This document shows, piece after piece, positions 7,390 through 9,747 of a stretch of DNA of 64,000 nt (its first letter is position 1; each line of letters opens with the position of its first letter). Both the position numbers and the translations under genes were made by a program. A model generated the notes under the pieces. The model was not told where the DNA came from and made no database searches. It saw only the letters and a list, made by a program, of their open reading frames with translations. This DNA comes from Pseudomonadota bacterium (GTDB lineage: Bacteria > Myxococcota_A > UBA796 > GCA-2862545): contig JAGSGY010000004.1 in NCBI GenBank assembly GCA_023954855.1, positions 1-64,000 of the forward strand, in the 5' to 3' direction.

Positions 7390-9747
7390 GTGGACGACGT
7401 GCTGCCCCGCTCCCTGGCCAATGGCCGGTACGAGCTGTCCGAACTGCTAGGACGCGGCGGAGCAGCGCACGTCTACCTGGCACGCGACCGCCTGCTCGAT
7501 GTGCAGCGCGCGATCAAGGTGCTGGGCAAGGGTCTGCGCGAGCACTACCTCGAGCGCTTCCTCACCGAAGCGCGCGCCATGGCCCTGCTGCAGCACCCAA
7601 ATGTCGTCACGATCTACGACGTCGGCTCGTCGAACCAGGACGACTACATCGTCATGGAGCTAGCGGCGGGCGGAAGCCTCTCCGGTCGCGTCAAGGCCCA
7701 CGGTCCCCTGCCCGTCAAGGAGTCCGTCCGCTTCGCAGTACAGACCCTCTCGGCACTGTCCGTGCTGCACGCCCAAGGCATCGTGCACCGGGACGTAAAG
7801 CCCTCCAACATTCTGCTGACCGATCGTGGACAAGCGAAGCTCACCGACTTCGGCATCGCCCTGCTGCAGAGCGAAGAGGCGCATCGCACCGAGCCCGGCA
7901 CGGCGATGGGAACACGCTCGTTCATGCCGCCAGAGCAGCGTCTCGACTCGCACGCCGTGGGCCCGCAGGCCGATCTGTACTCCCTCGGCACGACGCTGTA
8001 CGCCCTGATCACGCGCGAGTCCCCCATCGACCTCGCCTACGCGAAGGACCACTCGGACCGCTGGCTCCGGCTCCCCGCCGAGCTCCGTGGTCCCCTCCAG
8101 CACGCGTGTGCGCTGAGCCCCCAGGACCGTCCGGCATCCGCCCGCGAGCTCGCTGTGGCCCTGATGGACGGCATCGGCATGCACGAGGCCGAGCAGGCCG
8201 TGCTGCTGCAGGACTTCCATGGTGAAGTGCCGCGCGCCATCCCGATGAATGTGGCGCCACTACAGGCCGAGCCCACCCACCCGACACCGAGCACCGCCGC
8301 AGGTCGCCGCAGCTTCGCAGAGTCACTGAAGCTCCGCGCAGATGCGCTCGACCGCGCACGCGCTGCCATCCGGCGGGGCGAGGATGTGTCGGACACTCTC
8401 CGGCGAGTCGCGAAGGCCATCGCCAGCGGCGCCGAGCACCGCGGCTACCCCGACCTCGCCGAAGCCGCTCGTGAGCTGCAGGACGCGCCCACGGAGCAGT
8501 TCGACAAGCACCTGGCCACGCTACGCATCTCGATTCGAGCGCTACTCGACGACCAAACGGCACATCACACGGTCATCATCGTCGAAGACGACCCGTCGAT
8601 CTCCGGGGTGCTTCGCATCGCCGCACAGCGCCACGCCAAAGAGGTGGTGGTCGCCGCCGATGCACAGCACGGTCGCGAGCAGCTGCAAGCCACCCACCCG
8701 TCCCTCGTGCTCCTCGACCTCTTCCTTCCCGATGACGACGGTCGCGAACTCCTCCTGTGGATGCGAGACCAACCGCACCTTCGCGAAGTGCCTGTCGTCG
8801 TGGTCTCGGGCCGCGCCTCCGAACAAGTCCGAAGCGAGTGTCTTGCGCTTGGCGCCGACGAGTTGCTGCCCAAGCCGGTCGACCTCGCCGCCCTCGACGA
8901 AGTGCTCCGTCGCCGCCTTGCACCAAGTACGGAAGAGAACTCCACCGAGGACCGCGACCGCTTCCTCGAAGAGCTGCAGCGCGAGAACCGGGAGTACCAG
9001 CGCCACCGCACGCCATGCTCGATCGCGCTCGTCGCCGTCCGTGAAGACGACTCTTCCTCCAAGGCGCTGACCGCTGCGATCCGCTCCGCTCTAGGGCGCC
9101 ACCTTCCCGACGCCGTGACCGCAGCCTGGGATGATGGCGTCGTCGCAGTACTCCTCAAGGAGACACCCGCCGCGGCCGCAGAGCTCGGGCTCAATGCGGT
9201 GCTCACGACCATGGACCGGGAACGCACCACGCCTGGTGTCTCGCTCGCCGCTGGTGTCGTCGAGCCCATGGGGGCCCGTCCCGAGGACGCGATGTATCTG
9301 GCACGACGCATGTCTCGCCTCGCGCGCGCTGCAGGCCCGAACCAAGTCGTCGCCACCACCTGCGATCGACCCGCCGCACAGCGAGCGGCCGTCATCGACG
9401 ACGACCCCTCCGTCATGGTGTTGGTCCAGACGCTACTCGAACACCACGGAGCCGAGGTCCTCACCTTCACGTCCGGCGACGAGGTTCTCGAGTCGATCGA
9501 CCAGCTCGACGTGTCGCTGATCGTGCTCGACGTGCAGATGCCGGGCCCCGACGGACTCGCGGTGCTCGAGACCCTGCGTGCGCACCCACGCCACCTTCAC
9601 ACGCCCATCGTCATGCTGACCGGCATCGGCGACGAGGCGACCATCGAGCGCGCCTTCGATCTCGGCGCCGACGACTACGTCACCAAGCCCTTCCAGCCAC
9701 GAGCCCTAGCGGCTCGCCTGTCACGGCTGCTGAAGCGGCTCCACTAG
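7390..9747 (+). CDS. Ser/Thr protein kinase fused to two receiver domains and degenerate HPt- and GGDEF-like modules
   Basis: The protein has 785 residues from a GTG start (the frame has no better upstream start; GRYELSELLGRGG follows at once). Domains: a eukaryotic-type kinase at ~14-275 with the glycine loop, K43 in AIKVLGK, the HRDVKPSN loop with D135, DFG, and a PPEQ activation-segment end; a helical segment ~325-385 whose pattern (LRRVAKAIASGAEHRGYPDLAEAAREL) follows an HPt domain but has Lys where the phospho-accepting His should be; receiver 1 ~395-510 with D443; a ~140-residue segment with the size and order of a GGDEF domain, where the signature is DDGVVAVLL, so it should not make cyclic-di-GMP; receiver 2 ~660-780 with D714 and the K of VTKPF. 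It has no membrane helix and is presumably a cytoplasmic node joining Ser/Thr and His-Asp signalling. Its stop lies 3 bases from that of the FHA gene. Confidence 0.92.
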   Translation: MDDVLPRSLANGRYELSELLGRGGAAHVYLARDRLLDVQRAIKVLGKGLREHYLERFLTEARAMALLQHPNVVTIYDVGSSNQDDYIVMELAAGGSLSGRVKAHGPLPVKESVRFAVQTLSALSVLHAQGIVHRDVKPSNILLTDRGQAKLTDFGIALLQSEEAHRTEPGTAMGTRSFMPPEQRLDSHAVGPQADLYSLGTTLYALITRESPIDLAYAKDHSDRWLRLPAELRGPLQHACALSPQDRPASARELAVALMDGIGMHEAEQAVLLQDFHGEVPRAIPMNVAPLQAEPTHPTPSTAAGRRSFAESLKLRADALDRARAAIRRGEDVSDTLRRVAKAIASGAEHRGYPDLAEAARELQDAPTEQFDKHLATLRISIRALLDDQTAHHTVIIVEDDPSISGVLRIAAQRHAKEVVVAADAQHGREQLQATHPSLVLLDLFLPDDDGRELLLWMRDQPHLREVPVVVVSGRASEQVRSECLALGADELLPKPVDLAALDEVLRRRLAPSTEENSTEDRDRFLEELQRENREYQRHRTPCSIALVAVREDDSSSKALTAAIRSALGRHLPDAVTAAWDDGVVAVLLKETPAAAAELGLNAVLTTMDRERTTPGVSLAAGVVEPMGARPEDAMYLARRMSRLARAAGPNQVVATTCDRPAAQRAAVIDDDPSVMVLVQTLLEHHGAEVLTFTSGDEVLESIDQLDVSLIVLDVQMPGPDGLAVLETLRAHPRHLHTPIVMLTGIGDEATIERAFDLGADDYVTKPFQPRALAARLSRLLKRLH

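Follow-up and report, generated by a model that had tools for sequence, protein, structure and literature searches.

The input to bacterial Hanks-type Ser/Thr kinases is poorly known. Proteins combining such a kinase (STK) with a receiver domain (REC) in one chain are already known: REC-STK proteins are found in Burkholderiales MAGs (loci L001-L003) and in the very genome analysed here. They share this combination with the protein described below, but carry a single receiver N-terminal to the kinase and have neither an HPt nor a GGDEF part. A protein with the order kinase-TPR-GGDEF was described in 2005 (PMC1262709). Degenerate GGDEF domains accompanied by receivers occur in SgmT, PopA and ActA, the first of which is also a histidine kinase; all three keep the inhibitory site (I-site), and SgmT and PopA use the intact site to localise (PMC3509222). 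For LvrB, it has been reported that receiver phosphorylation switches a histidine kinase in the same chain (PMC13269768). On the output side, the STK PknH acts on EmbR, an OmpR-family regulator, through an FHA domain (PMC6213207).

Here, we describe a gene in which a Hanks kinase is joined to two receivers by way of HPt-type and GGDEF-type segments. It lies in a stretch of 64,000 nucleotides (the window; contig JAGSGY010000004.1, assembly GCA_023954855.1) and comprises the following features:

7390..9747, + strand: whole fusion gene, 785 aa from a GTG start; an orthologue is 70% identical across residues 2-785
7420..8169, + strand: Hanks-type Ser/Thr kinase domain (aa 11-260), Pfam 8e-46; K43, D135, D153, E182
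8311..8565, + strand: HPt-type four-helix bundle (aa 308-392) with the relay His lost; from hhalign, AlphaFold2 and a match to HptB
8413..8415, + strand: K342 (AAG) where the HPt phospho-His would be; the sister species has CAC, two base changes apart
8566..8910, + strand: receiver 1 (REC1, aa 393-507), complete; E399/D400, D443, S473, K495
8947..9369, + strand: GGDEF domain, degenerate (aa 520-660), with a deletion of about 12 residues in the DxDxFKxxND...GD region and without I-site
9130..9144, + strand: DDGVV (aa 581-585), which takes the place of the GGDEF active site and aligns with GGEEM/GGEEF in active relatives
9379..9744, + strand: receiver 2 (REC2, aa 664-785), complete; D669/D670, D714, T744, K766

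A GAGG-like ribosome site precedes the GTG start. A chance reading frame is ruled out by the full-length orthologue in the second species of the genus, which keeps the entire architecture, and by an overall dN/dS of 0.26. Pfam recognises Pkinase at residues 14-214 (8e-46) and Response_reg in two stretches (7e-50), while matches to GGDEF_2 (541-622, E 0.005) and Hpt (318-385, E 0.019) are weak and lie below both cut-offs. An earlier note, made from the sequence alone, had read the chain as kinase, HPt, REC, GGDEF and REC; Pfam, profiles and residues bear this out almost letter for letter, with D443, D714, Lys342 in place of His and DDGVV all at the positions it gave. Its view that eukaryotic-type and His-Asp signalling meet in one protein agrees with the presence of domains and residues of both, namely the kinase and two complete receivers. 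No stretch of the protein reaches the hydrophobicity of a membrane helix, which fits the soluble protein that the note had proposed and predicts a cytoplasmic Ser/Thr kinase. In the literature searched, the coverage of which was partial, no description of an STK-HPt-REC-GGDEF-REC architecture was found.

The kinase is the sole intact enzyme in the chain. It possesses the G-loop, the VAIK Lys (K43), the HRD Asp (D135), the DFG Asp (D153) and the APE Glu (E182) that define PF00069, and its nearest structures in the PDB are StkP, PknA and PknB. Both receivers likewise carry the acidic pair, the Asp and the Ser/Thr and Lys residues typical of PF00072. The Asp site of REC2 is intact in all homologues (9/9), and REC1 is broken in two genomes (G013 and G008). 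The chain has no DNA-binding or other output domain beyond the receivers. The best explanation of this arrangement, held with moderate confidence, is that the receivers gate the fused kinase via the dead GGDEF module. It is favoured because the parts are intact, because the kinase and REC2 are constrained, and because the module descends from an active diguanylate cyclase (DGC). The direction could also be reversed: the kinase as input, phosphorylating Ser/Thr residues of its own receivers or linker and so tuning their Asp phosphorylation, would turn the protein into a response regulator or phosphate sink that serves histidine kinases and is itself controlled by the Ser/Thr kinase. There is precedent for STKs modifying response regulators of two-component systems (PMC6213207), and the kinase-free paralogues described below have no kinase output, so that the module can function on receivers alone. 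Yet the missing output domain, the kinase as the only intact enzyme and the equal constraint on kinase and REC2 make this reading rather unlikely.

The HPt segment was identified mainly by sequence. In hhalign, the HPt profile of the genus matched that of other homologues with an E-value of 1.7e-11, against 0.1-0.3 for control profiles, and HPt homologues of the same family and phylum show AH[SRQ][LI]RG[ST] motifs and score above the Pfam cut-off. The earlier note had proposed structure prediction for residues 320-390, and a single-sequence AlphaFold2 model indeed gave an HPt-like four-helix bundle with a pLDDT of 91.7. Its top Foldseek match was HptB of P. aeruginosa (E 0.087, probability 0.99), which also came first in a structural comparison (Z 12.6, rmsd 1.7, 87 residues). 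Since designed four-helix bundles matched the model nearly as well, the fold alone is not decisive and the sequence evidence carries the assignment. Taken with the model, these profiles clearly point to a real HPt domain. It is thus a homologous four-helix bundle in the sense of PF01627 in which K342 occupies the place of the phospho-accepting His. The loss of this His is recent and confined to the window species, because the orthologue of the same genus, at 70% identity, retains it. In both species the RGSG motif around this position has already degenerated, and their HPt domains are only 47% identical, the lowest value of all domains. In the window species the domain would no longer pass phosphate, so that any relay from REC1 through HPt to REC2 within the chain would be broken; it may serve at most as a docking or spacing helix bundle. 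Across the family, such an internal relay is predicted to be broken somewhere in most members, with REC2 as the receiver that is always kept.

For the GGDEF segment, PF00990 gave no match on the window protein itself, and the assignment depends on profiles. A profile of the six degenerate members matched three active GGDEF relatives (hhalign probability 97, E 1e-10) as well as three unrelated GGDEF domains (probability 91, E 1e-6), compared with E-values of 0.1-0.3 for controls. Intermediates retain the GLP of the motif at the GGDEF start (TGLPG, SGLPD). By these profile comparisons the segment is homologous to the GGDEF fold. Structure prediction, suggested earlier for residues 510-655, returned the expected topology (helix-strand-helix-strand-strand-helix-strand-helix, with WDDG at the beta2-beta3 hairpin), albeit at the poor confidence of pLDDT 55 for a single-sequence AlphaFold2 model, and so gives the identification by profiles weak support. 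Among the best structural matches of this model, GGDEF and class III cyclase domains (6eib: Z 8.0, 122 aligned) appear alongside other folds of the ferredoxin-like type.

The domain cannot be an active diguanylate cyclase by its motifs: DDGVV, directly preceded by W580, replaces GG[DE]EF, and the DxDxFKxxND stretch is deleted. In SgmT and PopA, domains whose active site (A-site) is dead but whose I-site is intact act as c-di-GMP receptors (PMC3509222), and the GGDEF segment is under purifying selection, so a sensor of c-di-GMP or another nucleotide that gates the kinase was considered. However, the I-site motif RxxD, which lies upstream of the A-site in the three active relatives, occurs in none of the six degenerate members (the window protein has HLPD), which rejects a receptor using the classic I-site; moreover, the nucleotide- and metal-binding stretch is gone and the window's genome yielded no more than two recognisable GGDEF domains. 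We regard nucleotide sensing as very unlikely. The window protein further differs from SgmT, PopA and ActA in that its catalytic partner is a Ser/Thr kinase.

Selection was compared by domain between the two species of the genus. At a dS of about 0.9, which makes the values usable but rough, dN/dS amounts to 0.16 for the kinase, 0.165 for REC2, 0.28 for REC1, 0.29 for GGDEF and 0.32 for HPt, and it exceeds 1 for the short, unconstrained linker. The kinase and REC2 are accordingly the most constrained parts. The dead GGDEF region aligns without a single gap between the two species, and this together with its dN/dS argues for a retained structural part, such as the putative scaffold of the earlier note, which fits better than a decaying relic. 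A chance fusion with a neutral remnant as tail, in which HPt, GGDEF and perhaps the receivers decay and the kinase alone is in use, would account for the lost HPt His, the low conservation of that domain and the free linker. It sits poorly with two complete receivers, with a REC2 as constrained as the kinase, with the gap-free GGDEF segment and with the retention of the full-length fusion in two genera; a tail of this kind is highly improbable.

The origin of the tail can be traced in living relatives. Two distant families of the phylum contain kinase-free HPt-REC-GGDEF-REC proteins with intact catalytic motifs, namely one in genome G160 (P0008, GGEEM) and two copies in G368 (L079/L080, GGEEF). 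They have the same four domains in the same order, with complete receivers and about 27-33% identity to the window protein across the module, and resemble PleD-type REC-GGDEF response regulators in layout. All three have the HPt His, GGEE[F/M], the RxxD I-site and the substrate motifs and lack the kinase, whereas the window protein shows the reverse. Within the family to which the window belongs, copies without a kinase, in the window's genome (G000) and in close relatives (G001, G008), keep the HPt His, have a dead GGDEF domain and lack the I-site. A search for the same architecture as that of the window protein, which the earlier note had also proposed, found the kinase fusion in the window genome, in the sister species (70%) and in one other genus (34%; G013). 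Of the 379 genomes sampled from the phylum, 6 have the module and 3 the fusion.

Active and degenerate members are split in the module tree with 100/99 support. As this tree is unrooted, loss rather than gain of the GGDEF site is deduced from what remains of the motif and from the fact that such a site is more easily lost than gained. No member of the window's family, whether fused to a kinase or not, retains the active site or the I-site, and because kinase-free paralogues with a dead GGDEF domain exist, the death of this domain is not tied to the kinase. These comparisons support a tail that was joined to the kinase as a ready-made module. The earlier note had assumed descent from a REC-GGDEF protein that lost catalysis; the catalytic ancestor is supported by the extant HPt-REC-GGEE[F/M]-REC proteins, and the layout is refined in that HPt and both receivers belong to one module. 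The relatives thus form a living series from an active DGC over a dead-GGDEF module without kinase and a fusion with the HPt His to a fusion without it, an ordered record, provided by nature, of how a second-messenger enzyme is lost while its fold persists.

Whether the fusion arose once was addressed by kinase and module trees. No bootstrap tree of the kinases (0%) groups the G013 kinase with that of the window protein, and AU tests for a single origin, which neither support nor exclude two fusions, gave p values of 0.058 (kinases) and 0.113 (module). The wider proposal that Ser/Thr kinases in one bacterial family captured a dead DGC response-regulator module twice independently, with His-Asp phosphate directly gating the Hanks kinase through a pseudo-GGDEF coupler, is tentative and, taken as a whole, doubtful.

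Three neighbouring genes carry further signalling domains:

9751..10716, - strand: regulator with FHA (Pfam 2e-15) and C-terminal winged helix (Trans_reg_C, 1e-6), convergent with the fusion gene
10812..12281, + strand: second Ser/Thr kinase, its domain 43% identical to the fused kinase; syntenic in the sister species
14556..16997, - strand: hybrid histidine kinase, HisKA-HATPase-REC (degenerate, by eye)-REC (intact)-HPt; syntenic in the sister species

The gene of the FHA regulator is syntenic in the sister species as well (74% identity), and so are those of an OmpA-like protein and of one protein without a Pfam match. The hybrid histidine kinase lies five genes from the fusion gene on the opposite strand. 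Kinase and FHA-containing winged-helix regulator side by side are analogous to PknH and EmbR, although the FHA domain, C-terminal in EmbR, is N-terminal here, and PknH is not known to have receivers. In G013, the fusion has a lone Ser/Thr kinase beside it and neither a hybrid histidine kinase nor an FHA gene; consequently, the hybrid kinase as phosphate donor and the FHA regulator as target remain neighbourhood-based guesses. The second Ser/Thr kinase is a possible partner of the fusion protein.

Returning to gating by the receivers, two-component signals probably switch the eukaryotic-type kinase directly. A histidine kinase or HPt protein acting in trans would phosphorylate REC2 at D714 and perhaps REC1 at D443, the candidate donor being a phosphorelay that may include the hybrid histidine kinase. 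Activation of the receivers would then alter kinase activity by way of the dead GGDEF fold, which would transmit the signal or act by dimerisation, and the kinase would phosphorylate Ser/Thr residues on its targets, possibly including the adjacent FHA-winged-helix regulator. LvrB is an analogue of this mechanism only, as its kinase is a histidine kinase and its receiver is N-terminal. With two intact receivers on a Hanks kinase, control of a Ser/Thr kinase by receivers can be put to a direct test.

Some further observations concern the surroundings of these genes and the genomes searched. A search of 388 genomes sampled from the phylum to which a Roseateles genome belongs, run without a positive control, gave no member; loci L001-L003, considered as full-length matches, were rejected as they consist of two adjacent genes, a REC-cyclase and a REC-STK. 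In the window, a syntenic gene at 5349-6827 (- strand) encodes a protein that looks secreted and combines a thrombospondin type 3 repeat with a ricin-type lectin domain. The genome as a whole has well over a hundred Ser/Thr kinase matches, compared with two recognisable GGDEF and six HPt domains, and its REC-STK fusion (contig C173, L110:472-1983) is directly followed by another Ser/Thr kinase gene. In G368, the two cyclase genes lie near each other on contig C15 (L079:925-3063, - strand; L080:1375-3636, + strand), and each HPt-REC-GGEEF-REC chain ends in a class III cyclase domain recognised by eye, so that c-di-GMP and a cyclic mononucleotide may both be products of a single chain.
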